From contig NZ_CP121695.1 in assembly GCF_029761915.1 (NCBI RefSeq), forward strand, positions 3,439,501 to 3,503,500: a stretch of 64,000 bases of DNA, written 5' to 3'. This document shows, one piece after another, positions 42,421-61,762 of this stretch; position 1 is the first letter of the stretch; each line of letters starts with the position of its first letter. The DNA comes from Bradyrhizobium sp. CB1650. Its GTDB lineage: Bacteria > Pseudomonadota > Alphaproteobacteria > Rhizobiales > Xanthobacteraceae. A program made the position numbers and the translations under genes. Under the pieces are notes generated by a model, which was not told where the DNA came from, did not search any database, and saw only the letters and a list, made by a program, of their open reading frames with translations.

Positions 42421-43302
42421 ATGAAAGTCGCCACTTCGACAGCGAATCGACCGATCGACGATACGCAAAACTGCCTTGTATGTGGGGGCGCTTATAAGCC
42501 TAGCCACCTCCCTGGGCTATTCAAGTGCTCCTCCTGCGGCTTCATTTCTGCCAACCTGCAGATCCCCGAAGCTGAATTGGAGGCACTCTATGGAACGGAC
42601 TACTTCCATGGCCAGGAATACCTCGATTACGCGGCTGAAGCCGAAAGCCTCCGTGTTAACTTTCGGCGCCGGATATCCACGCTCAATCAATTGCGACCCA
42701 ACCTAATCGAGGCAGAGCTTTTCGAGATCGGATGCGCGTATGGATACTTTCTGCAGGAGGTTGCCCCCAGCGTTCGAAGAGCGTTCGGAATAGACATTTC
42801 GGCCGATGCGGTTGAGCGTGCCATAAAGGACCAGAACGTCGCTGCCGAACACGCCGATTATCTTTCTTACGATCTCGGCCGAAAGGTAGACGTGATCACG
42901 ATGTGGGATACTATTGAGCATCTCAAACGGCCTGATTTGTTCGTGGAGAAGGCGGCAGACGACCTCAAAACCGGGGGGCTCCTGGCGATAACCACGGGAG
43001 ACATCGGGTCATACGTAGCTCGCTTGCGAGGAAAACATTGGAGGATGATTCATCCTCCCACGCACCTCCATTATTTCTCGGTCAACACACTTTCTCGATT
43101 GCTCAAACGGCATAAGCTCAATGTAGTCTACGTCGCCCATCCGGGAAACTCGAGACGCCTAAGATCGGTTTTGTATTTTTTGCTGGTCTTAAAGGGCAAG
43201 CAGCGCCGACTCTATGATGCACTCCGGGGAAGTCCCGTGTTCAACCTGGATCTCACCGTAAACCTGTTCGATATCATGTACGTCGTAGCCAGGAAGCCAT
43301 AG
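42421..43302 (+). CDS. SAM-dependent methyltransferase with N-terminal zinc ribbon
   Basis: 293-residue protein. The N-terminus holds two Cys pairs, CLVCGG and CSSCGF (about residues 17-42), a rubredoxin-like zinc ribbon common in sugar C- or N-methyltransferases. The Methyltransf_23-type Rossmann core follows: AELFEIGCAYGYFLQEVAP (SAM motif I, about 100), FGIDISADAVERA, VDVITMWDTIEHLKRPDLFV and LKTGGLLAITTGD. The C-terminal HLHYFSVNTLSRLLKRHKL is also typical. It starts 13 bp after the CapD-like gene. It probably methylates a sugar or a glycan end. Confidence 0.85.
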   Translation: MKVATSTANRPIDDTQNCLVCGGAYKPSHLPGLFKCSSCGFISANLQIPEAELEALYGTDYFHGQEYLDYAAEAESLRVNFRRRISTLNQLRPNLIEAELFEIGCAYGYFLQEVAPSVRRAFGIDISADAVERAIKDQNVAAEHADYLSYDLGRKVDVITMWDTIEHLKRPDLFVEKAADDLKTGGLLAITTGDIGSYVARLRGKHWRMIHPPTHLHYFSVNTLSRLLKRHKLNVVYVAHPGNSRRLRSVLYFLLVLKGKQRRLYDALRGSPVFNLDLTVNLFDIMYVVARKP

Positions 43303-46298: not shown

Positions 46299-46937
46299 AT
46301 GATGAGCAACGGCGAGCATCAGGGGATGCAGGAAGCGCGGATCATGCTTGGCTTGCTCGAGCAAGTCGAACGCAATGGCGGGCAGACCCAACGCCGCATG
46401 GCCTCCGAACTTGGGGTTGCTCTGGGGCTTGTGAACGCGTACCTGAAACGCTGCGTGAAGAAGGGGCTGATGAAGGTTTCCGAGGCGCCGGCCCGGCGGT
46501 ACGCCTACTATTTGACCCTGCAGGGCTTCGCTGAGAAGGCGAGATTGTCGGTGGACTATTTCTCCTACTCCTTGTCGCTGTTTCGTCGAGCTCGATCCCA
46601 ATATGGCGCTCTCTTCAATCAGGCAACTGGTTGCGGTTTTTCCAGGCTTGTGCTGGCCGGCGTGTCCGATCTGGCGGAAATCGCGATCATCTGTGCCTTA
46701 GAGGCGGGGGTCGAGGTCGTAGCTGTGGTCGATGATACGCCGGGCAAATCGAGGTTTGTCGGCATCTCAGTGTTCCGGTCCTTCGACGAACTCGCGATAC
46801 CGTTCGATGCCGTGGTCATCACCGCGTTTCCGAATGCCGGTGATGTCTGGCAGGACGCACGCGTGCGTTTTGGGGAGGAGCGCATATTTGTGCCGCCGCT
46901 GCTTGGTCTGTCCCAGCCGGTGGCGGAGGCGTCCTGA
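46299..46937 (+). CDS. MarR-type EPS-associated transcriptional regulator
   Basis: 212-residue regulator. Residues about 10-75 form a winged helix: LGLLEQVERNGGQTQRRMAS, ELGVALGLVNAYLKRCVKKG, and the wing RYAYYLTLQGFAEKARL. This is the layout of EPS-associated MarR-type regulators found at the head of polysaccharide loci in alphaproteobacteria. Residues about 105-200 form a Rossmann-like domain (LVLAGVSDLAEIAIICALEA, VVAVVDDTPG, FDAVVITAFPNAGD), similar to the N-terminal part of sugar O-acyltransferases of the PglD type, and may sense a nucleotide or nucleotide sugar. The stop overlaps the ATG of the NusG-like gene by one base, so the two are coupled. Twin boxes upstream suggest self-control. 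Confidence 0.8.
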   Translation: MMSNGEHQGMQEARIMLGLLEQVERNGGQTQRRMASELGVALGLVNAYLKRCVKKGLMKVSEAPARRYAYYLTLQGFAEKARLSVDYFSYSLSLFRRARSQYGALFNQATGCGFSRLVLAGVSDLAEIAIICALEAGVEVVAVVDDTPGKSRFVGISVFRSFDELAIPFDAVVITAFPNAGDVWQDARVRFGEERIFVPPLLGLSQPVAEAS

Positions 46938-47452
46938 TGAATCGGGCGGAGACCAGACGCTGGTACGTCGTCCAAACGCGCCCGCACGCGGAAGTCAAAG
47001 TGGCGATGCATTTGGGAAGGCAAGGCTTTGACATCTACATCCCGCGCTACTTGAAACGAAGGCGGCATGCCCGGCGGGTCGAGATGGTCGCCGCCCCGCT
47101 GTTTCCGCGGTATGTGTTCGTTGCGATTGACGTGACCGCTCAACGTTGGCGATCGATACAGTCGACATTCGGAGTAGCGCGGCTGGTTTGCAACGGTGAT
47201 TATCCGGCAGAAGTGCCGGAGTCAGTTATCGGGGGGCTGCGGTCCAGCGAAGACGAGCGCGGGTTCGTTCGTCTTGAAAATCGGTCGGTGTTCCGGCTCG
47301 GGGACAAGGTACGTATTCTCGACGGCGCGTTCTCGGCGTGTCTTGGTTTGTTCGAGGGAATGCCCGATGGCGAACGCATCGCCATTCTCCTCGATATGCT
47401 TGGCCGCAAGGTCAGGATCGTGCTTGACGCGGATGCAATAGAAGCGGCGTAA
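46937..47452 (+). CDS. NusG-paralog antiterminator (RfaH-like)
   Basis: 171-residue NusG-family protein. The NGN domain (residues about 7-105) starts RRWYVVQTRPHAEVKVAMHL and contains GFDIYIPRYLKRR and APLFPRYVFVAID, the strands that contact the RNA polymerase clamp. A KOW domain follows (about 118-165) with FRLGDKVRILDGAFSACLGLFEG. The length and missing acidic loops fit specialised paralogs such as RfaH rather than housekeeping NusG. It is coupled to the regulator gene and stands directly upstream of a JUMPstart/ops-like sequence and a long polysaccharide operon, so it probably lets RNA polymerase read through the operon. Confidence 0.88.
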   Translation: MNRAETRRWYVVQTRPHAEVKVAMHLGRQGFDIYIPRYLKRRRHARRVEMVAAPLFPRYVFVAIDVTAQRWRSIQSTFGVARLVCNGDYPAEVPESVIGGLRSSEDERGFVRLENRSVFRLGDKVRILDGAFSACLGLFEGMPDGERIAILLDMLGRKVRIVLDADAIEAA

Positions 47453-47476
47453 AGTCGTTTGCGAACTGCATTCGGA

Positions 47477-47516
47477 CTCTGGTTGAAAGCGGTTTCACCC
47501 GGAGTGCGGTAGCATG
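47477..47516 (+). promoter_or_regulatory. JUMPstart/ops-like element
   Basis: CTCTGGT (47477-47483) and GCGGTAGCATG (47506-47516) match the two blocks of the enterobacterial JUMPstart sequence, whose ops core is GGCGGTAGCGTG. The spacing here is 22 bp instead of 16. TGC-GGTA-GCA (47505-47514) can form the small non-template hairpin by which ops recruits RfaH. It lies 25-64 bp after the RfaH-like gene and 113 bp before the first gene of the long operon. Confidence 0.55.
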
Positions 47517-47628
47517 GCTAAAATAGTGCGCCGCGAATCTGGGACTGTCGATGCGATCTTCTTGCTTAGCTAACCAACGCAGTGCCGCAGAAAAGTCTGG
47601 CGGCGTCATTGAACAGGCCGGGGATTAG

Positions 47629-48402
47629 ATGGTTTTGCGCCGTGCTTTTCGCCGCATGAGGCGGCTCGCGGGCGCTCTGCATGGGCCCGCAGTATCTGAA
47701 ACAGCAAGTGCCTCTGGCGCCATCGCGGACAGCCCCGCGTCTCCAGCGCCGCCGATGCACAGGAAGCTTATCGAAAACATGGAGATCCTAGCCAATGGCT
47801 ATGGTCAGTTGCGAACGTTCGATATCCATCGACCGGTCGACACTATTGGACAGGCGCTGCCGTGGTTTACCTACCCGGCGATTGAATACCTGAAGCGGTT
47901 CAATTTTAAAGGCTGGCGGGTGTTCGAATATGGCGCAGGCCAATCGACTGTCTATTGGTCGCGCCGAGGCGCCATCGTCACGTCGGTTGAGCACAATCCG
48001 CAATGGTTCGCGGAGGTGAAAGAGGCCCTGCCGGGCGCCGCAATCAGCCACCGCAGCGACAAAGAGGCCTATGTCAATGCTGTCGGCGACGAAGGCGTTC
48101 GCTTCAATGTCATTGTGATCGATGGTGTATGGCGTGAAGCCTGTGCCGATGCATGTATTCCCCACTTGAGTGACGACGGAATACTTATCCTTGACAATTC
48201 CGATTGGTATCACCAAGCAGGAACCAGAATCCGCAGCAAGGGCTTTCTTGAGGTGAGCTTTAGCGGGTTCGGTCCCGTGAACAACTATACATGGACGACG
48301 TCGCTCTTCTTCAGGCTTCCGAATTCCTCGTATAGGCTGACTCCCCCGGCCCCAATCGGCGGCAACATCCTCGGACCCGATGCGGTCAACGAATGGTGGT
48401 AG
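47629..48402 (+). CDS. Putative SAM-dependent methyltransferase
   Basis: 257-residue protein that begins the long polysaccharide run. The N-terminal 50 residues are basic then Ala/Ser/Pro-rich. The core has a class I SAM fold: RVFEYGAGQSTVYWSRRGA (motif I, about residue 105), TSVEHNPQWFAEVKEAL (acidic end of strand 2), FNVIVIDGVWREAC and HLSDDGILILDNSDWY. The last 50 residues carry FGPVNNYTWTTSLFFR. I place it among uncharacterised methyltransferases of glycan loci. A GGGGA lies upstream of the ATG. The substrate is unknown. Confidence 0.7.
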   Translation: MVLRRAFRRMRRLAGALHGPAVSETASASGAIADSPASPAPPMHRKLIENMEILANGYGQLRTFDIHRPVDTIGQALPWFTYPAIEYLKRFNFKGWRVFEYGAGQSTVYWSRRGAIVTSVEHNPQWFAEVKEALPGAAISHRSDKEAYVNAVGDEGVRFNVIVIDGVWREACADACIPHLSDDGILILDNSDWYHQAGTRIRSKGFLEVSFSGFGPVNNYTWTTSLFFRLPNSSYRLTPPAPIGGNILGPDAVNEWW

Positions 48403-48474
48403 GCTCAGTTACCCCTCAACGATCGTTTGGCGAACTGAAAGCGTCTCGATCACCATTCGAAGAGCAAATTTTGC

Positions 48475-49302
48475 ATGTCCTGGATCAAAAATCAGAGGTT
48501 GCTCAGGCGCCAGCGCGATGCTGAGCGCGCGGCTGCTCGGCTTCGAGAGCTTATCGATCGTCAAGTCGATATCAGCGAAAACATGATCGAGGCGGTCATC
48601 GAACGCGACCGCACAAAAGTGCTAGACATTCTCGCGCGAACAGATCCTTTTTTTTCGCAACGCGCGCTGAGCTTTTCGCAAGAAGGCGAGGACCTCATAC
48701 TCAAGCGGTTGTTCGAGGGTCGTAGTGAAGGCTTTTTTGTCGACGTCGGGGCCTATCATCCCTTTCGCTTCTCCAACACCTTCCTGCTGTATAGGTCGGG
48801 TTGGCGCGGTATCAACATTGATGCGACACCAGGATCCATGCACGCATTCGAAGAGTTTCGCCCGCTAGATACCAACATTGAGTGTTTCGTTGGCGACCCG
48901 ACATCGGAAAAGATCTTCACGCGCTACAACGAGCCGGCGCTGAATACCGGGTCACAGATGGTTTTGGAATCGCGCGTCCTGCATTCGTCTGTCTATTGGC
49001 CCGTCGGGACCTCTAAGGTACGACCACGTAGCTTGGCCGCGATATTGGAAGAGCACAAACCTGCCGATGTATCCATTGATCTCTTGAACTTGGACGTGGA
49101 AGGAAGCGAGCAGGACGTGCTTGATTCGAACGATTGGTCGAGATACCGACCGAGCGTCATCGTGATCGAGCAATTGTCAACCGATCTCGAGGCGAGCTCC
49201 CATCATCCCACCACCAAGTTCCTGAGTGATCTAGGATATCGGCTCGTTGCCAAAGCCATCAATAGTTCGTTTTTCAAGTTGAAAGAAGCCGGGTCCCGGT
49301 AA
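48475..49302 (+). CDS. FkbM-family methyltransferase
   Basis: 275-residue protein. After a basic, coiled N-terminal helix (RRQRDAERAAARLRELIDRQ) the FkbM domain runs from about residue 65: FSQEGEDLILKRLF, GFFVDVGAYHPFRFSNTFLL (SAM motif I), GINIDATPGSMHAFEEFRP and IDLLNLDVEGSEQDVLDSND, which is the FkbM signature near the C-terminus. Such enzymes O-methylate sugars and often work at glycan ends. The gene sits immediately before wzt, where O-antigen chain-capping methyltransferases are commonly encoded. A capping role is inferred from that position. Confidence 0.85.
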   Translation: MSWIKNQRLLRRQRDAERAAARLRELIDRQVDISENMIEAVIERDRTKVLDILARTDPFFSQRALSFSQEGEDLILKRLFEGRSEGFFVDVGAYHPFRFSNTFLLYRSGWRGINIDATPGSMHAFEEFRPLDTNIECFVGDPTSEKIFTRYNEPALNTGSQMVLESRVLHSSVYWPVGTSKVRPRSLAAILEEHKPADVSIDLLNLDVEGSEQDVLDSNDWSRYRPSVIVIEQLSTDLEASSHHPTTKFLSDLGYRLVAKAINSSFFKLKEAGSR

Positions 49303-49323
49303 CGTATCGTAAGTCGATTCCAG

Positions 49324-50625
49324 ATGACGCATCGGACCTCGATTCTCGTCGACGACGTGACGAAGCATTATCGGATCTATCCGACACCTCTGGATAGATT
49401 TCGGGATGCGTTGGGACTCAGATCCAGTTTCAAGGATTTTGAGGCGCTATCGAACGTATCGTTTCGTGTTGGATCCGGCGAATTCTGGGGAATCCTCGGC
49501 CGGAATGGGTCGGGCAAGTCGACGCTTCTGAAGGTGGTTGCTGGGCAACTTCAAGCGACAAAAGGTTCCGTAACTTGCAATGGTCGGGCCGCCTTGCTGC
49601 AGCTTGGCCTCGGTTTCGATCCCGAGCTGACGGGGCTCGAGAACATCAAGCATTCGCGTTTGCTTCAAAATCTGACGAGCGACTACCACGAGGTCGTCGA
49701 TTTTGTAACGAGCTTCTCTGAACTGGGCGATTTCATCAACTATCCGGTCAAGACCTATTCGTCGGGAATGTATTCGCGTCTCGCTTTTGCGACGGCAATC
49801 GCGGGCGACCCCGACATTCTCATTGCCGATGAGGTATTGGCCGTCGGGGACATGAATTTTTCGCAGAAATGCCTAGCCAAGATGCGTGAATTCAAGGAGT
49901 TGGGCAAGACCGTGGTGCTGGTCACGCACGATATCACGGCTGTAAAGAATTTCTGCGATCAAGCCATCTGGCTCAATGAGGGAAAGCTCATCGCATCCGG
50001 CCCGGCCACGCTCGTTGCGGAGGATTTTCGAAACTTCATGCTGTACGGCGTGACGAGCTCGTTGGCTACTGAGCCCAGCGCGCGTGCGAGTGACGATCAG
50101 GTCCTGACACCTTTGTCGGAGCCGAGCTCCCCCCAAGAAGCAGAATCCAGCTGGGTTATTCCCAACAGCAACAGGCGGACTGTTACCACTGGCAGGATCG
50201 ACATCTCGCGCTATCGGTTTGTCGACCTGGTGCGTCAGGCGGCGGTCGCTGACCTGCAGCCCAGCGAGCCGATCGGGCTAGAGATCGATTTCAGTTTTCT
50301 GGACGCGACCGAAATCGCTTCCTTTGGGGTTACTTTGCACGATCGCAGTGGCAATATTGCAGTTCATCTCAATTCTGAATTTTTTGGCGGTCACTCCATA
50401 GCTGGGGCGGCCGGCCGGGCCATGAGGGCCAAGTTCCTGTTCGACGTGCCTCCGCTTGCAAATGGCGATTATTCAATTTCGCTTGGTTGCTCGGACATAT
50501 CGGGCAATCTGCTCGAAAAATACGACTATGACTCTACGATCGGAATCTATCATCAAAAATCTCCCGCGACCGACCGCCAAGGAGGTTACGTCATCATTCC
50601 GGACGCCAGGTTCGAGATTTCCTGA
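49324..50625 (+). CDS. wzt: O-antigen/polysaccharide ABC exporter ATPase (Wzt type)
   Basis: 433-residue ATPase. The nucleotide-binding domain (residues about 5-235) has Walker A LGRNGSGKST, the signature YSSGMYSRLAFA, Walker B ILIADEVLAVGD and the switch His in VLVTHD. Residues about 280-430 form a C-terminal Wzt-C-like beta-sandwich (PIGLEIDFSFLDATEIASFG, GDYSISLGCSD), which in characterised systems binds the capped O-antigen end. With Wzm it exports undecaprenyl-linked glycan across the inner membrane. The 98-bp overlap with wzm is discussed there. Confidence 0.92.
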   Translation: MTHRTSILVDDVTKHYRIYPTPLDRFRDALGLRSSFKDFEALSNVSFRVGSGEFWGILGRNGSGKSTLLKVVAGQLQATKGSVTCNGRAALLQLGLGFDPELTGLENIKHSRLLQNLTSDYHEVVDFVTSFSELGDFINYPVKTYSSGMYSRLAFATAIAGDPDILIADEVLAVGDMNFSQKCLAKMREFKELGKTVVLVTHDITAVKNFCDQAIWLNEGKLIASGPATLVAEDFRNFMLYGVTSSLATEPSARASDDQVLTPLSEPSSPQEAESSWVIPNSNRRTVTTGRIDISRYRFVDLVRQAAVADLQPSEPIGLEIDFSFLDATEIASFGVTLHDRSGNIAVHLNSEFFGGHSIAGAAGRAMRAKFLFDVPPLANGDYSISLGCSDISGNLLEKYDYDSTIGIYHQKSPATDRQGGYVIIPDARFEIS

Positions 50626-51421
50626 CGTGCTTGGCTTGGTGCGGAGCGCCTTTCTGAACAGGCGCATACTTTGGCAGCTGATCAAGCGCGACCTCTTCGC
50701 TGCCCACCACGGATCGGTGTTGGGGGCGCTGTGGGTGCTGATTGATCCATTGGCTTATATCGCACTGGCGCTGTGCTTCTTTCAGTTTGCCGTGAAAGGG
50801 GGCGAGGACGCGGGTGTGTCCTATGTAGCCTGGGTGCTCCCCCTTATCGTGCTGTGGACCTTTGTAAGCGCCGCAATCAGTAGTGCGACCGCAATGGTTC
50901 GAGAATATAGTTTTCTGTTGAGGCATCGGAACTTCGACATGCGGCTGGTCGCCTGGATCAAAGTATCCTCTGCCGCGCTGGTCCATTTCGTCCTGCTGGC
51001 CGTTGTGCTGATTTTCCTGATCGTTCATTCCCGACTGCCAGTAGGTTGGCCAATGCTGGCGCTCGTCTACTATTTCTTCGCGATCTGTGCGTTCATCACC
51101 GCTGTAGACTGGATCATCTCTGCACTCGGAGTCTTCTGGAAGGACGTTCGGGGCATCGTCTCGATCCTCCTTCAAGTCGGATTTTGGATCAGCCCGATTT
51201 TCTGGGAGCCGAGCCGATTTCCCGCGCCTGTTGCTTTTGTGATGTATGCAAACCCGTTGTTTTATCCTATGAACGGTTATCGAAAATCGATCATTATGGC
51301 AGACTTTGGTGTGTCCTTTTGGGGATTCACGTTCTACTACTGGGCCGTAATTGGAGTGCTGCTGTATTTCGGTTCACGTCTGTTCAATCGGTTGTCGCGC
51401 AGTTTCGGAGACGTCCTGTAG
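50528..51421 (+). CDS. wzm: O-antigen/polysaccharide ABC exporter permease (Wzm type)
   Basis: Up to 297 residues, ABC-2 type permease with six membrane segments. The conserved cytoplasmic entry IKRDLFAAHHGSVLGALWVLIDP precedes the first one, and FWKDVRGIVSILLQVGFWISPIFW marks the re-entrant region. The ATG at 50528 would overlap wzt by 98 bp; a GTG at 50627, just after the wzt stop, would give a shorter protein that still begins before the conserved entry motif. An AAGGAGG at 50579 lies between the two. The start is therefore unsettled. It forms the channel half of the exporter whose ATPase is the upstream gene. Confidence 0.9.
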   Translation: MTLRSESIIKNLPRPTAKEVTSSFRTPGSRFPDVLGLVRSAFLNRRILWQLIKRDLFAAHHGSVLGALWVLIDPLAYIALALCFFQFAVKGGEDAGVSYVAWVLPLIVLWTFVSAAISSATAMVREYSFLLRHRNFDMRLVAWIKVSSAALVHFVLLAVVLIFLIVHSRLPVGWPMLALVYYFFAICAFITAVDWIISALGVFWKDVRGIVSILLQVGFWISPIFWEPSRFPAPVAFVMYANPLFYPMNGYRKSIIMADFGVSFWGFTFYYWAVIGVLLYFGSRLFNRLSRSFGDVL

Positions 51422-51635
51422 GCGTCTCGCCGCCCGGAGGTTTCTGGAACGCTGGTCGAGTCGCTATGCTGCCCTCGCGCGAGAAGACGGCAGTTCTGCG
51501 CGCCATCGTGACTGGTGATCGTTTCGGTCGAGGGAGAGTTCGCCGAAGGGGTCCGAAACCACCGGATTTGCAAGCTCAATATACCTTCTGTATAGCTTTG
51601 CGGCCCGTCAGCTGCGGGCCGAATTGGATGCGCAA

Positions 51636-52109
51636 ATGACCGCAATGACCGAAGACAATACCGGCCCGCTGGTGCAGGTCGAGCATGACGGACAATTGCT
51701 GGCCGTCATCGTGCGCAACGAATTCCGCACTCCCGGCATCACCTTCTTTACCGACAACGAGTTGTCCCAGCAGATGGGTTTCATGCGCCATCCCGTGGGC
51801 AAGGTGATCGAGCCGCATGTTCACAATCACGTCTCCCGCAGCGTCAACTATACCCAGGAGGCGCTGTTCATCCGCCGCGGAAAGGTCAGGGTCGACTTCT
51901 ATTCCGACGCTCAGCACTATCTGTTCAGTCACGTGCTGCGTTCCGGCGATGTGGTGCTGTTGATCTCCGGTGGCCACGGTTTCGAGATCCTCGAGGAAGT
52001 GGAGATGATCGAGGTGAAGCAGGGGCCGTATGCCGGTGATCGCGACAAGACGCGCTTCGTGGGAGTTTCCACCGAGCGGCTGTCCGGTCCAGACGGTCAC
52101 AAGGCGTAG
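51636..52109 (+). CDS. Cupin-fold protein of the polysaccharide locus
   Basis: 157-residue single-domain cupin. The beta-barrel motif IEPHVHNHVSR carries two His for a metal or substrate site, and EALFIRRGKVRVDFY with the GDVVLLISGGHGFEIL strand completes the fold. It resembles small WbuC/WxcM-like cupins of O-antigen loci, though I would not name one. It ends 30 bp before the DegT aminotransferase gene. Two in-frame ATGs lie close together at the start. A sugar isomerase or a regulatory sugar-binding role is possible. Confidence 0.65.
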   Translation: MTAMTEDNTGPLVQVEHDGQLLAVIVRNEFRTPGITFFTDNELSQQMGFMRHPVGKVIEPHVHNHVSRSVNYTQEALFIRRGKVRVDFYSDAQHYLFSHVLRSGDVVLLISGGHGFEILEEVEMIEVKQGPYAGDRDKTRFVGVSTERLSGPDGHKA

Positions 52110-52138
52110 TGTTCATCCAGAGTTCCGGAGAAGGGTCC

Positions 52139-53245
52139 ATGATACCAGTATCTGAACCACTATTGGCCGGAGTCGAGGCGAAGTATGTCGCCGATTGCAT
52201 CCAAACCGGCTGGATTTCCTCCGAGGGGCGCTATCTCGCCGCTTTCGAACAGGCGTGGGCGCAATATTGTGGCGCCGAATTCGGGATTGGCGTTTCCAAC
52301 GGAACGACCGCGTTGCAGATCGCCGTCGCCGCGCTTGGACTTGAGCCCGGTTCGGAGATCATCTTACCGTCCTTCACGATCATCTCCTGCTCGCTGGCGA
52401 TCGTGGAAGCAGGCTGCGTCCCGGTACTGGTCGATGTCGAGCCGGAGACCTGGGCGCTCGATCTCGACCAGGTAGAAGCGAAGATCACGAGCAAGACCCG
52501 CGCGATCATGCCAGTGCACATGTTCGGCCATCCCGTTGATATGCCGCGTCTGATGAAGATCGCGGCCAGGTACAATCTGAAGGTGATCGAGGATGCAGCA
52601 GAGGCCCATGGCGCCGAGGTGGATGGCCGCAGGGTGGGTGGGATCGGCGATCTCTCCACGTTCAGCTTCTATGCCAACAAGATCATCACCACGGGCGAAG
52701 GCGGCATGGTGCTGACCAGCGACGAGGGGCTGGCCAAGCGCCTCCGCTCGTTGCGCAACCTCTGCTTCAAGCCGGAACGGCGCTTCTTCCACACCGAGCT
52801 CGGACATAATTATCGGCTCACCAATCTGCAGGCGGCGATCGGTCTGGCGCAGCTTGAGCGGATCGACGAGCACCTGGCCAAGAAGCGCTGGATGGCCACG
52901 AGCTATGCCGAGCGGCTGCGCGATCTCCACCAGCTCCGGTTGCCCATCGAGCTGCCCGGCTACAAGAACGTCTACTGGATGTACAGCATCGTGCTGAGCG
53001 ACGACGTGCCGTTCGATGCGGTGGAGTTCGCCAAGCGCCTGCAGCAACTGGGTGTGCAGACCCGCCCGCTTTTCCTCGGTATGCATGAGCAGCCGGTGTT
53101 TCACGAGCGTGGCCTTCATCTGAACGAGCGCTATCCGGTCACCGAACGGCTGGCGCGGCGCGGGCTCTATCTTCCATCAGGGCTCACGCTCACGATCGAG
53201 CAGATCGACGCCGTCAGCGACGCCGTCCACAAAGTCCTGGCATGA
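52139..53245 (+). CDS. DegT/DnrJ/EryC1 nucleotide-sugar aminotransferase
   Basis: 368-residue PLP enzyme that converts a keto-sugar nucleotide into an amino sugar, perosamine-synthase-like. Landmarks are IPVSEPLLAGVEAKYVADCI, GWISSEGRYLAAFE, GVSNGTTALQIAVAAL, VIEDAAEAHGAE (cofactor Asp) and FSFYANKIITTGEGGM with the Schiff-base Lys at about residue 183. GGAGAAGG precedes the ATG at 52139. The stop overlaps the next ATG (ATGA). It resembles GDP-perosamine synthases and related enzymes more than the second DegT protein in this window. The matching keto-sugar supply is not encoded here. Confidence 0.9.
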   Translation: MIPVSEPLLAGVEAKYVADCIQTGWISSEGRYLAAFEQAWAQYCGAEFGIGVSNGTTALQIAVAALGLEPGSEIILPSFTIISCSLAIVEAGCVPVLVDVEPETWALDLDQVEAKITSKTRAIMPVHMFGHPVDMPRLMKIAARYNLKVIEDAAEAHGAEVDGRRVGGIGDLSTFSFYANKIITTGEGGMVLTSDEGLAKRLRSLRNLCFKPERRFFHTELGHNYRLTNLQAAIGLAQLERIDEHLAKKRWMATSYAERLRDLHQLRLPIELPGYKNVYWMYSIVLSDDVPFDAVEFAKRLQQLGVQTRPLFLGMHEQPVFHERGLHLNERYPVTERLARRGLYLPSGLTLTIEQIDAVSDAVHKVLA

Positions 53246-54006
53246 CCGGCGTATTTAACGAAGCCTACGCGTCCGCCTACGATGCCATGTATGCGGACAA
53301 GAGCAACGCTGCGGAATGTGACGCGGTGGTCTCCCTGTTCCGCAAATGCGGCGACAGAAAGATCTCGCGCCTCCTCGATCTCGGCTGCGGCACCGGCAGG
53401 CACGCGATCGAATTAGCGGGGCGCGGCTTCGACGTGACCGGCGTGGATTTCTCCGAGGCCATGCTGGCACGGGCGCGCGAGCGGGCGCCGGGCAAGGGGA
53501 CGCTGGATTTCGCGCAGGGTGATGCACGAAGCTATCGATCCGCCAAGCCGTTCGATGCAGTGCTGATGAATTTCAACGTGCTCGGCTACATGAGCAGCAA
53601 TCAGGACTTCACCGCGGCGCTCGCCACTGCGCGCGCGAACCTGCGCGCGGGCGGCGTTTTCGTCGCGGACTTCTGGTACGGCCCGGCCGTGGTGATCGAT
53701 CCACCGGGCGAGCGCCTGCGTGAAATCACCGCCGGTGACAGCAAGATCCTGCGCTGCTCGCGCGGCACGCATGAGCCGGACAGACAATGCATCAGCATCG
53801 CTATCCGCGTGATCGAGGTGCAGCAGGGGCAAATTCGCGCCGATAGCGAGGAAGTCCATACCATGCGCTATTTCTTCCCGCTCGAGCTCGAGCTGGCGCT
53901 GCAATCGCACGGCTTCCGGCTCGCGGCGCTGACTGGCTATCCCGACATCGAAAAGCCGGCGAGCGCGAGCGAGTGGCTGGCGGCGCTCTGCGCAGTCGCG
54001 ATCTAG
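53242..54006 (+). CDS. SAM-dependent methyltransferase
   Basis: 254-residue class I methyltransferase. The core shows LLDLGCGTGRHAIELAGRGF (motif I, about residues 43-62), VTGVDFSEAMLARARERA, FDAVLMNFNVLGYMSSNQDF and ANLRAGGVFVADFWYGP. YFFPLELELALQSHGF is the usual C-terminal strand-helix. It overlaps the aminotransferase gene by ATGA. The position right after a DegT enzyme fits N-methylation of the amino group (N,N-dimethyl or N-methyl sugar), which is an inference from context. Confidence 0.85.
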   Translation: MTGVFNEAYASAYDAMYADKSNAAECDAVVSLFRKCGDRKISRLLDLGCGTGRHAIELAGRGFDVTGVDFSEAMLARARERAPGKGTLDFAQGDARSYRSAKPFDAVLMNFNVLGYMSSNQDFTAALATARANLRAGGVFVADFWYGPAVVIDPPGERLREITAGDSKILRCSRGTHEPDRQCISIAIRVIEVQQGQIRADSEEVHTMRYFFPLELELALQSHGFRLAALTGYPDIEKPASASEWLAALCAVAI

Positions 54007-54024
54007 GCTATATCGAGCGCCTTC

Positions 54025-55320
54025 ATGAAGATCGGTCTTTGCGTCATCGACATGCCGGCCTCGCTCGGCGGCGGCTACGTGTTCCGCGAAAGCCTGGCGC
54101 AGGCGGCGCTAGCGAATCCGGGCCGGCACACGATCGAACTGGTGAAGGCGCGGCCGCGCCAGCCGAAATTCGACCAGAGCTCGATCGGCGCTTCGCTCGG
54201 CAAGGCGGTGCGGCGAGGGGGCGTCGCCTCCGTCCTCAATCCCGCTTTTCTCAAGACTGGTGTCCGCAAGGTGGCGCGCAAGGTGCTTCGATCAGGCGGC
54301 GGGTCAGGCTCCGTCGAACCGCAGGTTCGCTCCTATGTCGATTGGGCCATCGAACAGAAATTGACCTGGCCAAATCCGGACGTCGTGCGCGATTTCGACG
54401 CCGATGTCCGCGACCGGAATTTCGACCTGCTCTGGTTCAACAATATCGAGCCGATCCACATCGGCGTTCCCTACATTTACAACGTATTCGATCTGCAGCA
54501 CCGGGTGCAGCCGTGGTTTCCCGAAGTTAGCGACAAGGGCCAATACCGGCTCCGCGAAGGCAGCTATTCGGAAGCCGTGCGCCGCGCCGCCTTCGTCGTC
54601 ACCTCGTCCGAGGAAACCAGGGAGCAGGTGAGCCTGTTCTATGGCGTGCCATCCGACCGCATTCGCGTGATCCCTTTCCCGACGCCGCAGCCGGCGACCG
54701 ATGCGGCCGCTGTGCCGCCGAAGATGAGCGAGGCGGAGCTCCGCGCAAAGCACGGAATCAAGGGGCCTTATCTGTTCTATCCGGCGCAGTTCTGGCCGCA
54801 CAAGAACCACATCAACCTGCTGCGCGGGCTGAAGGTGCTGCGCGAGAAGCATGGGCTCGAGCATTCCATGGTCTTCACGGGCGCCGACCATGGCAATGCC
54901 GACTTCGTCAAGGCGGAGGCACGATCGCTCGGGTTGGCCGACAAGGTTCATTTCGCCGGCTTCATTTCCTATGACGAGGTTGCCGCACTCTACCGGCATG
55001 CCTTTGCCATGACGTATGTGACCTTCTTCGGGCCCGACAATCTGCCGCCGCTGGAAGCGTTCGCGTTCGGATGTCCCGTCGTGCTGTCCGACATCCCCGG
55101 CATCGAAAAGCTGTTCGAGGATGCCGTCGTGCCGGTCAACCATCGCGATCCCTCCTCGATTGCAGCCGGTGTCAAGAGGCTGGTTGACGATCCCGCCGAA
55201 CGCGCGCGGCGAGTGGAGAAGGGCAAACTCATTGCCGCTCGCAATTCGATGCCGAATTACGTCACGCAAGTTCAGGCATTGTTTGATGAATTCGAATCGG
55301 TCCGTCGTTGCTGGCCGTAG
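54025..55320 (+). CDS. GT4 glycosyltransferase
   Basis: 431-residue GT-B enzyme of family GT4. The N-terminal half has MKIGLCVIDMPASLGGGYVF (glycine loop). The C-terminal half has YLFYPAQFWPHKNHINLLRG (donor-site Lys and His), KVHFAGFISYDEVAALYRHA and FFGPDNLPPLEAFAFGCPVV, a variant of the ExFG-type E7E motif in which Pro-Leu-Glu precedes AFAFG. The end of the protein (VRRCWP) is unremarkable. It follows the methyltransferase with 18 bp between them. It transfers a sugar, retaining configuration, to the growing repeat unit. Confidence 0.88.
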   Translation: MKIGLCVIDMPASLGGGYVFRESLAQAALANPGRHTIELVKARPRQPKFDQSSIGASLGKAVRRGGVASVLNPAFLKTGVRKVARKVLRSGGGSGSVEPQVRSYVDWAIEQKLTWPNPDVVRDFDADVRDRNFDLLWFNNIEPIHIGVPYIYNVFDLQHRVQPWFPEVSDKGQYRLREGSYSEAVRRAAFVVTSSEETREQVSLFYGVPSDRIRVIPFPTPQPATDAAAVPPKMSEAELRAKHGIKGPYLFYPAQFWPHKNHINLLRGLKVLREKHGLEHSMVFTGADHGNADFVKAEARSLGLADKVHFAGFISYDEVAALYRHAFAMTYVTFFGPDNLPPLEAFAFGCPVVLSDIPGIEKLFEDAVVPVNHRDPSSIAAGVKRLVDDPAERARRVEKGKLIAARNSMPNYVTQVQALFDEFESVRRCWP

Positions 55321-55349
55321 GGCCATCGCATTGAGGTGAGCAAACCACT

Positions 55350-56498
55350 ATGCGCGTCATGATCATCAGTACCGACTACGGCCCGTTTCTGCGGACGCTG
55401 TACAATCCGAATCCATCCTTGCTCGGCCGGCTGCTCGGCCGCAAATCCGCGCTGCAGGGTGCGTCGTACAAGCAGCAGCTTGATACACGCAACGACACGC
55501 TGTTTGCCGGATCGGATTTCTATTCGCGGAATTTTGTTGCGCTCGGGCACGAGGCGGCGGAGTTCCATGTCAACAACGGCGCCCTGCAGTCGGCCTGGCT
55601 CCGGGAGCGAGGGCAGCAGGTCGGGCCGCGTCCAGCCGTTGCGAGCCCGCTGCGTTCGCCGATTGAGCCGAGCAACATCGATCTCGAGGAGATCATCGTC
55701 AGCCAGGCGCGCGAGATGAAGCCCGACATCATCCTCAACCAGGCGGTGAGCGAAGTCGAAAGCCGGGTGCTGGAGCGCCTCAAGCCGTATTGCAGATTGA
55801 TCGTGGGCCAGATCGCCTCACCCTATCCGGAGAATGAGCCGTATACGGCCTACGATCTGATGATCTCCTCGCTGCCAAATTTCGTGAACTATTACCGCAA
55901 GCGTGGGCTCGCCGCCGAGCCGAACCTCTTGGGATTTGAACCTGGAGTTCTGGAAGAGGTGAAGGTCGCCGAACGCGACGTGTCGCTGTCCTTTGTCGGT
56001 AGCATCACCTCGGATCATGGCTCCCGCTACGATTTGGTCGACCGGTTGGTGCGCGCGACCGATATCCAGATTTGGGGCCGTCTGGTATCGGTCCCTTCGA
56101 GCTCGCCGATCATGAAGCGATATCGAGGCGAGGCCTGGGGCCGCGGCATGTTCGGCGTGCTGGGCCGCTCCAAGATCACCGTCAACCAGCACATCGACAT
56201 CGCCGAAAACTACGCCAACAACATGCGCCTGTTCGAGGCCACCGGCATGGGGGCGCTGCTGATCACCGACTGGAAAGACAACATCGCCGACCTATTCGAG
56301 CCCGGCAAGGAAGTCGTCTGCTACAAATCGGTCGACGAATGCATCGAGCTGATCGACTATTACTCTCGCCACGAGGCGGAGCGGGCAGCGATCGCGGCGG
56401 CCGGACAACGCCGCACCCTGCAAAGCCATTCCTACGCGCAAGTGGTTGCCGATCAGGTCCGCATCTTCGAGCACTATCTGGCGGCCAAGGCCGCATAG
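55350..56498 (+). CDS. CgeB-like glycosyltransferase
   Basis: 382-residue protein of the GT1/CgeB-like group. The N-terminus MRVMIISTDYGPFLRTLY, the segment GSDFYSRNFVALGHEAAEF and the C-terminal block ENYANNMRLFEATGMGALLITD (read in parts), followed by DNIADLFEPGKEVVCY, are typical. The same features recur in the protein encoded at 60561, so the locus holds two intact members of this family and one relic (57498). GAGGTGA lies upstream of the ATG. It is likely to add a sugar in the O-unit. Confidence 0.82.
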   Translation: MRVMIISTDYGPFLRTLYNPNPSLLGRLLGRKSALQGASYKQQLDTRNDTLFAGSDFYSRNFVALGHEAAEFHVNNGALQSAWLRERGQQVGPRPAVASPLRSPIEPSNIDLEEIIVSQAREMKPDIILNQAVSEVESRVLERLKPYCRLIVGQIASPYPENEPYTAYDLMISSLPNFVNYYRKRGLAAEPNLLGFEPGVLEEVKVAERDVSLSFVGSITSDHGSRYDLVDRLVRATDIQIWGRLVSVPSSSPIMKRYRGEAWGRGMFGVLGRSKITVNQHIDIAENYANNMRLFEATGMGALLITDWKDNIADLFEPGKEVVCYKSVDECIELIDYYSRHEAERAAIAAAGQRRTLQSHSYAQVVADQVRIFEHYLAAKAA

Positions 56499-56521
56499 CG
56501 ATTCAATCGGGATCCGACGGC

Positions 56522-57499
56522 GTGATTGGGCAGACTTCAACGGCGTGCATCGCCTGCGGCGCCGGTAATGCGCCGTATATCGGCGAAATCTGGGACGACC
56601 GCTACGGCTCGCCCGGAAAATTCTCGGTCCTGAAATGTGCAAGCTGCGGGCAGATGGTGACGTCGCCGATGCTTCGCGAAGAGGATCTTCCCACGCTCTA
56701 CAGCCGCTATTACCCGAGGCGGAACGTCGACCTCAAAGCGATCAAGCGCGAGGCCGACGCCGTTCTCGCCGCAGGTGCCGAACACAAAAGGCATCGCGAG
56801 GGCTCCGACAATCAGGGGCAGTATCTGGTCAAGCCGGGGCAGAAGGTGCTGGATATCGGTTGCGGTTCCTGCGTGTCGCTGATCGAAGTGCGCAATCTCG
56901 GTGGCAAGGCCTGGGGAATCGAGACCGATCCCAATGTAGGCGCCATCGCCGATCATTTCGGCCTCGATGTGCATATCGGCAGCATCCATGACGAGCCGTT
57001 TCCGGGCGAGGATTTCGATCTGATCGTGCTCAACCAGGTCATCGAGCACGTACCTGATCCAATCGCGCTGCTGAAGCTGGTACGTCGACGGCTTCGTCCG
57101 GACGGCAAGGTGGTGCTGGCCTTCCCCAACACAGCATCTCTTAACAAGCGGGTTACCGGACGCCGCTGGATCAACTGGCACATTCCGTATCATTTGCACC
57201 ATTACAACAAGCGGTCCTTCACGCTGATTGCAGAGCAGGCGGGTTATGGCGTGGCGAGCATGCAAACAATCACGCCGAACGTGTGGACGATTTTGCAGAT
57301 GCAGGCATTGCTGCGTCCGGCAAGCGAGCAACAAGCCGCCGCTTGGGGGGATTCGACGACGGCAACCGCGGCCGAGGCTCCTGTGACCGTCAAGAAGCAT
57401 CTCGTGTCCATCGCCCACGCGATCATCGGTCCGTTCAACCGGATCATGGATCAAATGGGGCTGGGCGACAGCCTGCTGGTCAAGCTCCGGCCAAAGTGA
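56522..57499 (+). CDS. SAM-dependent methyltransferase with zinc ribbon
   Basis: 325-residue protein similar in build to that encoded at 42421. The N-terminal ribbon has CIACGAGN and CASCGQ. The core has VLDIGCGSCVSLIEVRNLGG (motif I, about residues 108-127), WGIETDPNVGAIAD, FDLIVLNQVIEHVPDPIALL and LRPDGKVVLAFPN. The C-terminal HLHHYNKRSFTLIAEQAGY is shared with sugar methyltransferases. GTG at 56522 is the start; the overlapping longer frame lies in the preceding gene. It probably methylates a sugar in the glycan. Confidence 0.85.
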   Translation: MIGQTSTACIACGAGNAPYIGEIWDDRYGSPGKFSVLKCASCGQMVTSPMLREEDLPTLYSRYYPRRNVDLKAIKREADAVLAAGAEHKRHREGSDNQGQYLVKPGQKVLDIGCGSCVSLIEVRNLGGKAWGIETDPNVGAIADHFGLDVHIGSIHDEPFPGEDFDLIVLNQVIEHVPDPIALLKLVRRRLRPDGKVVLAFPNTASLNKRVTGRRWINWHIPYHLHHYNKRSFTLIAEQAGYGVASMQTITPNVWTILQMQALLRPASEQQAAAWGDSTTATAAEAPVTVKKHLVSIAHAIIGPFNRIMDQMGLGDSLLVKLRPK

Positions 57500-57672
57500 G
57501 CGGGAAGAAGCCTGCGTCGAAATCCCGCACCGCCAATCCGTCGCTGCGACGCAGGATTGTCACACCCGATCCGCTATTCCTGTCGCTTGCCGCGTCGGAT
57601 TTCTTGGTCAAGAACCTCAATGATCTCGGCTGCGATGCCGCCGGCCTGACGGCCAATTGCACACAGCTGTAG
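57498..57672 (+). pseudogene. N-terminal relic of a CgeB-like glycosyltransferase
   Basis: A 58-codon frame starting with GTG inside the methyltransferase stop. Its end, SDFLVKNLNDLGCDAAGLTA then NCTQL, closely resembles SDFYTKHLKDLGCEAFDLIA then NCVPL of the glycosyltransferase encoded at 60561. A TAG stops it exactly where the intact proteins continue with QAAWLRENG. I read it as the start of a third glycosyltransferase gene of this family, decayed after a duplication. The 138 bp that follow up to rmlA hold no further match that I can see. Confidence 0.7.
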
Positions 57673-57810
57673 TCGGCGCGCGTTGCGAAGCTGGCCCATA
57701 GCCAAATGACGTTTCGGTCAGACGGGATTTTGCAGCGTTGTTTCGGCAACGCCGGTTCTGGGCCGTAGCACGGCCTGACGATCACGCAGTTGACAAGAGA
57801 AGGAAAACAG

Positions 57811-58686
57811 ATGTTGCGCCGGGGTATCGTGCTGGCCGGGGGAACGGGCTCACGTCTTTTCCCGATGACATCGGCAGTGAGCAAGCAGCTGCTTCCGATC
57901 TATGACAAGCCGATGATCTACTACTCGCTCTCGACGCTGTTGCTGAGCGATATCCGCGAGATATTGCTCATCTCGACGCCGCGCGACGTTCCCCTGTTTC
58001 GCGAGCTCTTGGGCGATGGATCTCGCCTGGGTATCCGTCTCGAGTTCGCTGTTCAGCAGCGGCCGGCCGGGCTTGCCGAGGCATTCCTGATTGGCGAAAG
58101 TTTCCTGGATAGTGCTCCCAGTGCGTTGGTCCTGGGCGACAACGTTTTCTATGGCGAAGGCTTCTCGGATCACCTGAGCAGCGCGAGCAGACGCGGAGTT
58201 GGCGCGACCATCTTCAGCTATCCGGTGCAAAATCCGCGTGACTTCGGCGTCGTGGTCTTCGATGAGCATGGCCGTGCGACCGACATCGAGGAAAAGCCGG
58301 AAAAGCCTAAATCAAGTTCCGCAGTGGTTGGTCTCTATTTTTACGACGAGCGAGCGCCACGCTTTGCGCGGACGCTGACGCCTTCGGCGCGCGGCGAACT
58401 GGAAATCACCGACCTGAACCGGCGATACCTCGAGACGCGTGAGCTTTACGTCGAGCAGCTCGGTCGAGGCTTTGCATGGCTCGACACCGGAACCTGCGCG
58501 TCGATGCTCGATGCGACAAACTTCGTTGCGACGTTGCAGAGGCGGCAGGGACTGCGGATCGCCTGCCTCGAGGAAATCGCGTTCCGCAAGGGCTGGATCA
58601 CCAAAACGGAACTCGCGGCCGCGGCAGCTCGATTTGGCGCTAGCGAATACGGCGCCTACCTGCTCGAGCTGCCTTTGTTCATGTGA
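57811..58686 (+). CDS. rmlA: Glucose-1-phosphate thymidylyltransferase (RmlA)
   Basis: 291-residue enzyme that forms dTDP-glucose from glucose-1-phosphate and dTTP, first step of dTDP-deoxysugar synthesis. Landmarks are RGIVLAGGTGSRLFPMT (nucleotide loop), SKQLLPIYDKPMIYYSLSTL, LVLGDNVFYGEG, EEKPEKPKSS, AVVGLYFYD and GFAWLDTGTCASMLDAT. AGAAGG precedes the ATG. With the FdtA- and FdtB-like genes downstream and rmlB at the window edge, it supplies dTDP-4-keto-6-deoxyglucose for a 3-amino sugar. RmlC and RmlD are not in the window. Confidence 0.95.
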   Translation: MLRRGIVLAGGTGSRLFPMTSAVSKQLLPIYDKPMIYYSLSTLLLSDIREILLISTPRDVPLFRELLGDGSRLGIRLEFAVQQRPAGLAEAFLIGESFLDSAPSALVLGDNVFYGEGFSDHLSSASRRGVGATIFSYPVQNPRDFGVVVFDEHGRATDIEEKPEKPKSSSAVVGLYFYDERAPRFARTLTPSARGELEITDLNRRYLETRELYVEQLGRGFAWLDTGTCASMLDATNFVATLQRRQGLRIACLEEIAFRKGWITKTELAAAAARFGASEYGAYLLELPLFM

Positions 58687-58791
58687 CCCTTGCATGACGC
58701 TGGAGCGCATGCCATGCGGGGAGTAATGCTTCTATCGCGGCTTCTCCTCGAGCGGGCAAACGGCTAGTTGCAGATCCCGAGCGCGATCAAG

Positions 58792-59937
58792 ATGAATCAG
58801 AAACCCTCAACAATCGGCCCAGACATGCAAGCCACCGTCGTTCCTTTGGCCAGCCCTCGTCGTGATGTTGCGCGCTATGAGGCCGATCTCATCGAGGTGA
58901 CGCGTCGTGTCATTGCCTCGGGCAGCTACATTGGTGGCCCCGAGCTTGATGCATTGGAGAAAGGGCTCGCGCGCTCGATTGGGACGGAGGCGGTGACCGG
59001 CGTCGGCAGTGGCACCGACGCCTTGATCTTTGCGATGCAAGCGGCCGGCGTCTCCCGTGGAGACGAGGTCATCGTTCCCTCGCATACGGCTGGTCCGAGT
59101 GTAGCCGCGATCAACGCGCTGCCTGCCACGCCCGTTTTCGTCGATGTCGAGTTCGATACGGCCTGCATCGATGTGAACTGCGTTGCGGCCGCGATCGGCC
59201 GGCGAACCAAGGCGATCCTTGCCGTTCACCTCTACGGTCATCCGGCTCGGATCGACGAATTGGTCCGGTTGGCTGCGGATCGCGGGGTTTCGGTTATCGA
59301 GGATTGCGCCCAGGCGCAAGGCGCGCGCCTGATGGACAGGCCGGTCGGCTCCTTCGGCCGGTTTGGGTGCTTCTCGTTTTATCCGACCAAGAATCTCGGC
59401 GCGATCGGAGACGCAGGCGCGGTCGCAGGCTCTGCCGCCGGCGTAAGCCTCGTCCGTCAACTGCGGACCTATGGCTGGCGAGAGCCGCAGTTCGCGGAAA
59501 TTCCCGGTGGACGCTGCTCGCGCCTCGACGAGTTGCAGGCTGGCTTCCTGAATGTGCGGCTCAAGGGGCTGGATGAGGATGTTCGGGCGCGCCGCGAGAT
59601 CGCGCGCGCCTACAACGAACGCCTGGCGGGTTTGCCGATCGCGCTGCCCGTCGAGCACAAGGGCGCCTATCACGCCTACCATTTGTTCGTCATCAAGTCG
59701 GACCGCCGCGACGCCCTCAAGGAACATCTGGCGAAGTCGGGTGTGATGACCAGCATCCACTATCCATTCCCGGCGCATCGCCAGCCCGGGCTTGCCGCCG
59801 GCAGCCGCACCGAAGGGACGTTGGATGTGACGGACAGGCTGCAGCAGCAGATCCTCAGTCTTCCAATCTTCGCTACGATGTCGCGTGGCGAAGTGGATCG
59901 GGTCGCCGAAGCCGTGCGCGGATTCTTTGGGGACTAG
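58792..59937 (+). CDS. dTDP-3-keto-6-deoxyhexose aminotransferase (FdtB/QdtB-like)
   Basis: 381-residue DegT-family PLP enzyme. Landmarks are VVPLASPRRDVARYEADLIE, GSYIGGPELDALEKGLA, GVGSGTDALIFAM, VIEDCAQAQGARL and FSFYPTKNLGAIGDAGA with the PLP Lys. These are characteristic of the 3-aminotransferases that make dTDP-Fuc3N or dTDP-Qui3N. The assignment is strengthened by the neighbouring ketoisomerase gene, 2 bp downstream. The start among three nearby candidates (TTG 58768, ATG 58792, ATG 58825) is not certain. Confidence 0.87.
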   Translation: MNQKPSTIGPDMQATVVPLASPRRDVARYEADLIEVTRRVIASGSYIGGPELDALEKGLARSIGTEAVTGVGSGTDALIFAMQAAGVSRGDEVIVPSHTAGPSVAAINALPATPVFVDVEFDTACIDVNCVAAAIGRRTKAILAVHLYGHPARIDELVRLAADRGVSVIEDCAQAQGARLMDRPVGSFGRFGCFSFYPTKNLGAIGDAGAVAGSAAGVSLVRQLRTYGWREPQFAEIPGGRCSRLDELQAGFLNVRLKGLDEDVRARREIARAYNERLAGLPIALPVEHKGAYHAYHLFVIKSDRRDALKEHLAKSGVMTSIHYPFPAHRQPGLAAGSRTEGTLDVTDRLQQQILSLPIFATMSRGEVDRVAEAVRGFFGD

Positions 59938-59939
59938 TC

Positions 59940-60356
59940 ATGTCGAGCGGCCGGACAGCCAATGCCTTGAGCAGGGTCACGCGTGGAAGCGCCAAGCTGG
60001 TTGGCGATGATCGCGGCACGTTGGGCGTGGTCGACCTGGTCGGGCACGCGCCTTTCGTGCCGGTGCGCATCTTCTGGATCTCGGATGTTCCGGCGGGAAA
60101 GGTACGGGGAGGGCATGCGCACAAGGCGTGCAGCCAGTTTGTCGTTTGCCTTCACGGCAGGGTCGTGGTCGATGCCTTCGACGGAACCGCAAACGAGCGC
60201 TTTGTGCTCGAGGCCGGCGATTTCATCAATCTGGTTCCGGGAATCTTCGCGACCGAAGAGTTCGTCGAACCGGGCTCGCTGCTGCTGGTCGTCTGTGATC
60301 GGCCCTACGAGGCGCACGATTATATCCACGACAAGGACGCCCTGAAGCCTGATTGA
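59940..60356 (+). CDS. dTDP-6-deoxyhex-4-ulose 3,4-ketoisomerase (FdtA/QdtA-like cupin)
   Basis: 138-residue cupin. It fits the FdtA/QdtA family that moves the keto group from C4 to C3 of dTDP-4-keto-6-deoxyglucose before transamination. Family landmarks are DDRGTLGVVDL, FVPVRIFWISDVPAGKVRG then GHAHK (catalytic His region), CSQFVVCLHGRVVVDAFDG and FINLVPGIFATEEF. It follows the aminotransferase gene by 2 bp. Whether the product has the gluco (Qui3N) or galacto (Fuc3N) form cannot be read from the sequence by eye. Confidence 0.88.
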   Translation: MSSGRTANALSRVTRGSAKLVGDDRGTLGVVDLVGHAPFVPVRIFWISDVPAGKVRGGHAHKACSQFVVCLHGRVVVDAFDGTANERFVLEAGDFINLVPGIFATEEFVEPGSLLLVVCDRPYEAHDYIHDKDALKPD

Positions 60357-60560
60357 TCGGTAATCGATCGGATACGTCACCTACATCCCACAATCGCGAT
60401 CGATTGCGCTTGGTTGACCCATGGCCCGATCGGTCCCGTCAATCGTCTGGCCTGCGCTTGGTTTGGGAGATAGCCTCTTGGTCGTGCTGCGTAGGAATTG
60501 AATGCGCCGGAACGCCGACGGCGAAGCGTACGAACAGGACTGGAGTCAACCGGAAGGGCC

Positions 60561-61688: not shown

Positions 61689-61762
61689 GCTCGGAGATCG
61701 GAGAGACGGAACGTTCGAAGCGTCGGGTCATGGCAAGTCAGGACGACTGCAGGCGTGGAGCA

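Follow-up and report, generated by a model that had tools for sequence, protein, structure and literature searches.

An ops-like element with an abutting hairpin recurs beside an RfaH-like NusG paralog in Bradyrhizobium and other Alphaproteobacteria

When 64,000 nucleotides (nt) of the Bradyrhizobium sp. CB1650 chromosome (NZ_CP121695.1, positions 3,439,501 to 3,503,500; the window) were analyzed, a hairpin joined to an ops-like block was observed between the gene of an RfaH-like, specialised NusG paralog and a long glycan operon. Very probably, the adjacent paralog loads at this element. The element is real and widespread and its partner protein is well supported. The pair reaches across Alphaproteobacteria, with two cases in another class. 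The preliminary description of this DNA had proposed an RfaH-like paralog with an ops-like element ahead of a glycan operon. Recurrence, covariation, co-occurrence across genomes and signatures in the protein support this proposal.

The paralog gene (46937..47452, plus strand, 171 amino acids; Pfam NusG, 77.5 bits) is followed by a leader of 176 nt (47453..47628, plus strand) that extends to the first glycan gene. The ops-like element TGCGGTAGCATG (47505..47516, plus strand) shares 10 of 12 bases with the Escherichia coli ops element GGCGGTAGCGTG and contains the same 8-base core, GCGGTAGC. Taken as a 12-nt sequence in the leader of an operon, here the presumed target, it qualifies as an ops element. 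CTCTGGT (47477-47483) and GCGGTAGCATG (47506-47516) had been reported 22 nt apart and just past the NusG paralog; both were found there, CTCTGGT beginning 24 nt after the stop codon inside the 176-nt gap. Over 82 non-redundant sites, ops positions 2-5, 8 and 9 are kept in all 82, position 7 in 81 and position 6 in 78, a conservation due in part to selection, as the core was used in choosing sites. Most sites have TG at positions 11-12; in some it is one base off. As had been predicted, TGC-GGTA-GCA folds into a small DNA hairpin, of whose pairs only the inner two (2-9 and 3-8) never vary, unlike T1-A10.

The larger hairpin (47476..47505, plus strand; RNA or non-template DNA) consists of a 5' arm (47476-47488), a GCGG loop (47489-47492) and a 3' arm (47493-47505). 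It starts 23 nt past the paralog gene, forms 12 pairs with one mismatch and joins TGCGGTAGCATG directly. The segment 47473-47517 folds with -19.2 kcal/mol, a value equalled by 0 of 200 shuffles, and two fold tests gave local z values of -2.3 and -2.9; taken as a whole, the 176-nt leader does not fold unusually well (z -0.30). Among relatives, sequence conservation is found in the 3' arm TTTCACCCGGAGT, with CACCC nearly invariant, and the 5' arm and the loops vary. CTCTGGT had been taken for a conserved block, but it belongs to this variable 5' arm, the hairpin itself having been missed.

As the MAFFT alignment left the 5' arms unaligned, the scans relied on a sequence-only model (R1) that covers the 3' arm and ops, and the stem was put to a separate test. 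The training set of R1 comprised 35 sites, of which 33 adjoin a paralog and most had been picked with a pattern containing the ops core. Because R1 holds no pairing information, the stem is an independent test, and it covaries. The mean hairpin energy of the 82 sites is -13.7 kcal/mol, compared with -11.0 when 5' arms were swapped between sites (standard deviation 0.23; best of 200, -11.6) and -8.6 when they were shuffled; 73 of the 82 have at least 6 pairs in the 3' arm. This set includes the decayed site of L028 and omits that of L111 and a weaker second copy in L009. The latter (reverse strand, offset 2330) is a hairpin-ops copy with a GCTGTAGC core, 240 nt past the main one. For 21 sites in loci where the element is not beside a paralog, two chance-looking rows included (the second of L251 and that of L252), the mean energy is -13.2 kcal/mol, against -10.7 with swapped and -10.4 with shuffled arms, and two-sided pair changes occur at the four positions preceding ops position 1. 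The predicted stem takes in ops position 1 in 41 of the 82 sites, and in another 11 it stops immediately ahead of that position. The remaining sites have a stem that stops 2-5 bases earlier, apart from one site without such a predicted stem.

A protein search of 146 genomes of the genus found the paralog (E < 1e-20) in 24. When the regions downstream of the gene were compared, GGTAGC was present 55-96 nt past the stop in 22 of 23 close orthologs, the window included, and also in L026, whose paralog is 36 % identical; in L026 and the close orthologs it is always preceded by a hairpin. The preliminary description had made its case depend on such conservation beside orthologous paralogs, which was found. 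R1 sites at E ≤ 1e-3 occur in 24 of 24 genomes with an intact paralog, five of which had supplied training sites, and in 0 of 122 others. Part of this match is linkage, because the element adjoins the paralog. Two genomes go beyond linkage. In G084, the paralog-adjacent copy is degenerate and an intact copy lies 44 kb off, heading histidine-biosynthesis-like, glutamine amidotransferase, oxidoreductase and GDP-mannose-dehydratase-like genes; in G093, a broken paralog goes together with a decayed element. The window genome has one clear element (33.5 bits at 47493-47521), its next R1 match scoring 13.6 bits. Three Bradyrhizobium loci from the wider search described below (L161, L162 and L165) carry elements identical to those of genus members, which points to Bradyrhizobium as this genus.

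The paralog was found at E ≤ 1e-14 in 89 of 385 alphaproteobacterial genomes. From 92 paralog matches in the class, G471 and G467 were left out and the window genome was counted separately, and in 29 of the resulting 89 loci a strict pattern placed the element beside the gene. At E ≤ 1e-3, R1 detected 51 sites, which are distributed over 50 of the 385 genomes; scans of more than 40 genomes used stricter filters, with weak matches lost. The paralog is present in 47 of the 50 site-bearing genomes and in 42 of the 335 others (p = 9e-32). When the 30 training genomes were removed, the counts were 18 of 21 and 41 of 334 (p = 7e-13). Twenty-eight of the 51 sites are beside the paralog and 23 are not. 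In 20 of the 21 site-bearing genomes outside the training set, a site lies away from any paralog gene, and 17 of these 20 carry the paralog: on another contig or more than 600 kb away in 12, and within about 1-24 kb in 5. Draft contigs may be neighbours, so some of the distant cases are possibly closer.

Twenty of the 23 non-adjacent sites were examined for the genes that follow them (G204, G326 and G499 were left out), three of them (L251-L253) in genomes without a detected paralog. One early downstream plus-strand open reading frame (ORF) was scanned per site, the first in 16 cases and the second in four. Sugar-nucleotide or glycosyltransferase genes follow 13 of the 20 sites. The Pfam matches were Polysacc_synt_2 in five (L239, L243, L247, L248 and L251), DegT in two, cytidylyltransferase in two, and NeuB, UDP-GlcNAc 2-epimerase, nucleotidyltransferase, glycosyltransferase, ABC transporter, asparagine synthase, acetyltransferase and formyltransferase in one each; three had no Pfam match. 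Since minus-strand ORFs lie between site and scanned gene in several loci (L240, L242, L246, L249 and L252), not every scanned gene need be a target.

Relatives were also searched for with an alignment of 26 paralogs, and the best 80 of 564 loci were kept as named loci. These include Bradyrhizobium, Nitrobacter, Hyphomicrobiaceae, Devosia, Paramagnetospirillum and Rhodospirillales; a few loci bear labels from outside the class. At E ≤ 1, R1 matched 53 times. A site lies 30-199 nt past the paralog stop (median 55) in 47 of the 80 loci, and a plus-strand site lies farther downstream in five more; L208 (minus strand) was omitted from this count. A model-free test gave the same block: GCGGTAGC is the commonest 8-mer in the 250 nt past 79 paralog genes, being present in 44. 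The top count of any 8-mer in 20 Markov simulations was 10, and GCGGTAGC occurs in 1 of 73 and 0 of 70 control regions. In a tree of the paralogs, sites beside the gene are spread over it; the branches of E. coli RfaH and the two NusG rows are 6.8 and 7.6 changes per column long, which makes their placement unusable.

R1 sites at E ≤ 0.01 were detected in 17 of 299 genomes of the phylum, and 10 of these 17 belong to other classes. Six outside-class loci were examined and the paralog is next to the element in two, L269 and L274. Both belong to family f184 of another class, and the L274 protein is 36 % identical to E. coli RfaH. Either vertical inheritance or transfer could account for this pair. 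Two other relatives of the paralog (37-38 % identical) are labelled outside Alphaproteobacteria, in Fluviispira (L217) and in a metagenome-assembled genome (MAG) labelled Legionella (L227), and R1 scans of these two loci gave no site. In a MAG labelled Nitrospirales (L234), the contig ends at the paralog gene.

The best NCBIfam model for the window protein is RfaH (115.7 bits, below its cut-off of 144.5). Housekeeping NusG TIGR00922 (58.9 bits; cut-off 135.7), LoaP (45.3 bits; cut-off 125) and UpxY (71.6 bits; cut-off 100) also scored below their cut-offs. The NGN domain is nearer to RfaH than to NusG, and the top structure matches of the protein are RfaH on the ops-paused polymerase. The window genome has two NusG-type genes, of which the housekeeping one is the better Pfam match. 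Among 53 paralogs, H20 and R23, which both differ from NusG, are each kept in 42, and most keep three (H20, R23 and Q24) of the four residues of the T6 pocket, which takes up the flipped T of ops. As to an autoinhibited, alpha-helical C-terminal domain, the signs are mixed: the position of I93 holds I or V in 51 of 53 and F130 is kept in 43, but E48 is absent. At K10, H20, R23 and R73 the window protein has R, H, R and F, and thus two of the four ops-contacting residues. The best AlphaFold2 model, the only one viewed, predicts the C-terminal domain as a beta-barrel (block pLDDT, the predicted local distance difference test, 69-79).

Pausing, binding, antitermination and a role of the hairpin are what we infer from the RfaH analogy plus the hairpin geometry. 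RNA polymerase, having transcribed the regulator gene upstream (see below) and the paralog gene, would pause at the ops-like block, where the hairpin would form in or near the RNA exit channel and prolong the pause. The usual spacing of a hairpin pause is about 11 nt. When the stem includes position 1, as in the window, its foot is 10 nt before the expected U11, the position at which E. coli ops pauses (PMC11001881). In the account given there, ops pauses and RNA-hairpin pauses are biochemically distinct; features of both are joined in the present element. The non-template GCGGTAGC would then show G5 and T6, in the small DNA hairpin, to the N-terminal domain of the paralog (the H20, R23, Q24 pocket), and the paralog would stay on the polymerase and exclude NusG, hence Rho, through the 15-kb glycan operon. 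Because the window genome has only one such site, we propose that the pair is a dedicated cis system there; elsewhere the same signal also heads distant glycan genes.

Several observations weigh against a paralog that loads at this element. In the case of the genomes, no site at E ≤ 1e-3 was found in 42 of the 89 paralog-bearing genomes of the class, and 33 of the 80 named loci have none beside the gene. Conversely, three site-bearing genomes of the class are without a detected paralog (one site, that of L252, is chance-like). At E ≤ 0.05, the genus scan added G093, G098 and G023, and 17 of 76 site-bearing genomes of the class are without the paralog; the excess persists at laxer thresholds. 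In the case of the protein, two of the four ops-contacting side chains are mostly not kept, K10 being present in 2 and R73, which also belongs to the T6 pocket, in 6 of the 53 paralogs. The autoinhibition residue E48 is present in none. As Q24 and T72 are common to housekeeping NusG, only H20, R23 and G74 discriminate. Finally, a preprint (PMC13015549) reports, in its accessible text, that beta-fold RfaH homologs adjoining their operons act without ops in E. coli, and the fold predicted for the present paralog is of the same beta kind.

The rarity of K10 and R73 would also fit a paralog that reads the RNA hairpin as LoaP does, GCGGTAGC being merely a pause sequence. LoaP binds a small leader RNA hairpin (PMC12691694), and TTCACCC in the 3' arm is conserved beyond the needs of pairing. 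However, the loops vary, GCGGTAGC outranks the 3'-arm words in the 8-mer count, and in 42 of 53 paralogs the T6 pocket retains H20 and R23, in which it differs from NusG. We therefore regard this explanation as unlikely. Chance resemblance had been raised as a caveat in the preliminary description. In the window alone, GCGGTAGCNTG with up to one mismatch gave 5 matches against 5.1 expected, the exact match occurring once only, but the genus and class scans and the 8-mer recurrence refute this caveat, and its probability is practically negligible.

As the inverted repeat is palindromic and near a winged-helix regulator gene, it might be the operator of that regulator, which was found in 26 of the 146 genus genomes, including 23 of the 24 with the paralog. 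The few informative cases speak against it: G032 has the paralog and the element without a regulator match, and G002, G012 and G093 have the regulator without an intact element. Moreover, the 3' side continues into the asymmetric ops block, and 47 of the 52 plus-strand sites in named loci are just past the paralog, in transcriptional orientation; an operator is very improbable. The block might otherwise be a leader-peptide start, or an attenuator with the hairpin as terminator, for ATG, GTG or TTG stands at positions 10-12 in 57 of 81 sites. Yet the frames from there have a median of 19 codons, against 21 and 23 in the other frames, position 10 is C in 6 of 82 sites, the TG is displaced in some, and a terminator scan of the region did not list the hairpin. 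This too is very improbable.

With the paralog as reader of the ops-like block, a further reading is possible, to which we give somewhat less than even chances. The element may be a two-part signal, not described in the literature found, in which an RNA hairpin in the exit channel, spaced roughly as in a hairpin-stabilised pause, is fused to an ops-type non-template DNA hairpin, the signal being read by a non-autoinhibited NusG paralog. Recognition of ops has been proposed as a late event, with R73 and fold-switching in the RfaH line (PMC7593976, accessible text). If the two-part reading is true, ops recognition would be older and built on the H20-R23-Q24 pocket, with fold-switching as a later addition. 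The element supplies a concrete site for a paralog group present in the 89 of 385 sampled genomes. It also predicts regulons: a dependence on the paralog is expected of element-headed operons, among them those of nonulosonate and O-antigen type that lie elsewhere in the genome. Rhizobial operons of this kind make surface glycans that are important in symbiosis.

The presumed target operon (47629..62791, plus strand) is the co-directional, approximately 15-kb glycan operon that had been described downstream of the element. Its Pfam matches are methyltransferases, a Wzt/Wzm-type ABC exporter, DegT aminotransferases, glycosyltransferases and a sugar nucleotidyltransferase, and some ORFs have none. 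A promoter scan found none. The winged-helix regulator gene upstream (46299..46937, plus strand; Pfam HTH_24, 33.1 bits) overlaps the start of the paralog gene with its 3' end (46937). Its product, with 51.8 bits against NCBIfam TIGR04176 (below the cut-off of 88), is a distant relative of MarR-type regulators associated with extracellular polysaccharide. Farther upstream, a second co-directional set of sugar genes (38502-43302) comprises a nucleotidyltransferase, an epimerase-like gene, a glycosyltransferase, Polysacc_synt_2 and a methyltransferase; an R1 scan of the whole window gave no element besides that of the leader, thus none at this set. Two ORFs, 23942-29437 and 31421-34540, contain tandem repeats of 357-360 bp (27214-29392 and 32720-34126, respectively) and several W_rich_C domains, the second with additional RTX-repeat and M10 peptidase matches. 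They likely encode secreted repeat proteins beside the glycan locus.

When compared with known systems, the pair shares with E. coli RfaH/ops, as presented in PMC5995543 and PMC11001881 (accessible text), the NGN fold, the 8-base core and glycan targets, as well as TG at 11-12 in most sites and residues H20, R23 and Q24 in most paralogs. Unlike E. coli RfaH, the present paralog is often encoded beside its target, its C-terminal domain is predicted as a beta-barrel and not as an alpha-hairpin, it seldom has K10 or R73 and never E48, and its ops-like block adjoins a covarying hairpin. Genes for RfaH-like proteins with glycan neighbours have already been reported in Alphaproteobacteria, e.g. CL4 beside helix-turn-helix (HTH) regulators (Wang et al. 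2020, PMC7593976), and our guess is that CL4 may include the present paralog family. In its accessible text, the same paper calls the recruitment modes of operon-encoded NusG paralogs unknown and gives no recruitment signal for these clusters. No description of an alphaproteobacterial ops element was found in the literature searched, which did not extend to subscription papers and supplements.

JUMPstart RNA (RF01707), listed for Gammaproteobacteria in the accessible text of PMC2864571, likewise places a stem immediately ahead of ops in the leader of polysaccharide genes, with one unpaired base between the two in the Rfam consensus. The two designs are thus alike, and it is in sequence outside ops that they differ. 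The preliminary description had called the element JUMPstart/ops-like; the ops-like block recurs, but the Rfam JUMPstart model does not recognise the element. An Rfam search of the window at gathering thresholds gave no match, and a permissive search of 301 bases gave JUMPstart at 13 bits (E 4.6; cut-off 35) besides two unrelated weak matches. Among the 385 class genomes, 20 had JUMPstart matches at E ≤ 0.1 and none was above the cut-off; of the weak places listed, a single one (G226 C5) is also an R1 site. Against the Rfam model the E. coli element reaches 60 bits, and R1 does not match it. We therefore rejected the window element as JUMPstart in the Rfam sense. The window stem has 12 pairs against 5, the conserved 3' arm is TTCACCCGGA against CCAGG, and in 52 of 82 sites the present stem extends as far as ops position 0 or 1. 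CTCTGGT probably resembles JUMPstart because both 5' arms pair with a similar 3' arm.

The LoaP/dfn hairpin of Bacillus velezensis also combines a NusG paralog with a leader RNA hairpin before a long operon, but that hairpin is of the UNCG type, and the accessible text of PMC12691694 mentions no ops core and reports that no pause was detectable at the hairpin. In Bacteroides, UpxY is likewise a NusG paralog encoded with its capsule operon; unlike the present paralog, it works in the leader upstream of its own gene (PMC7819879, accessible text).
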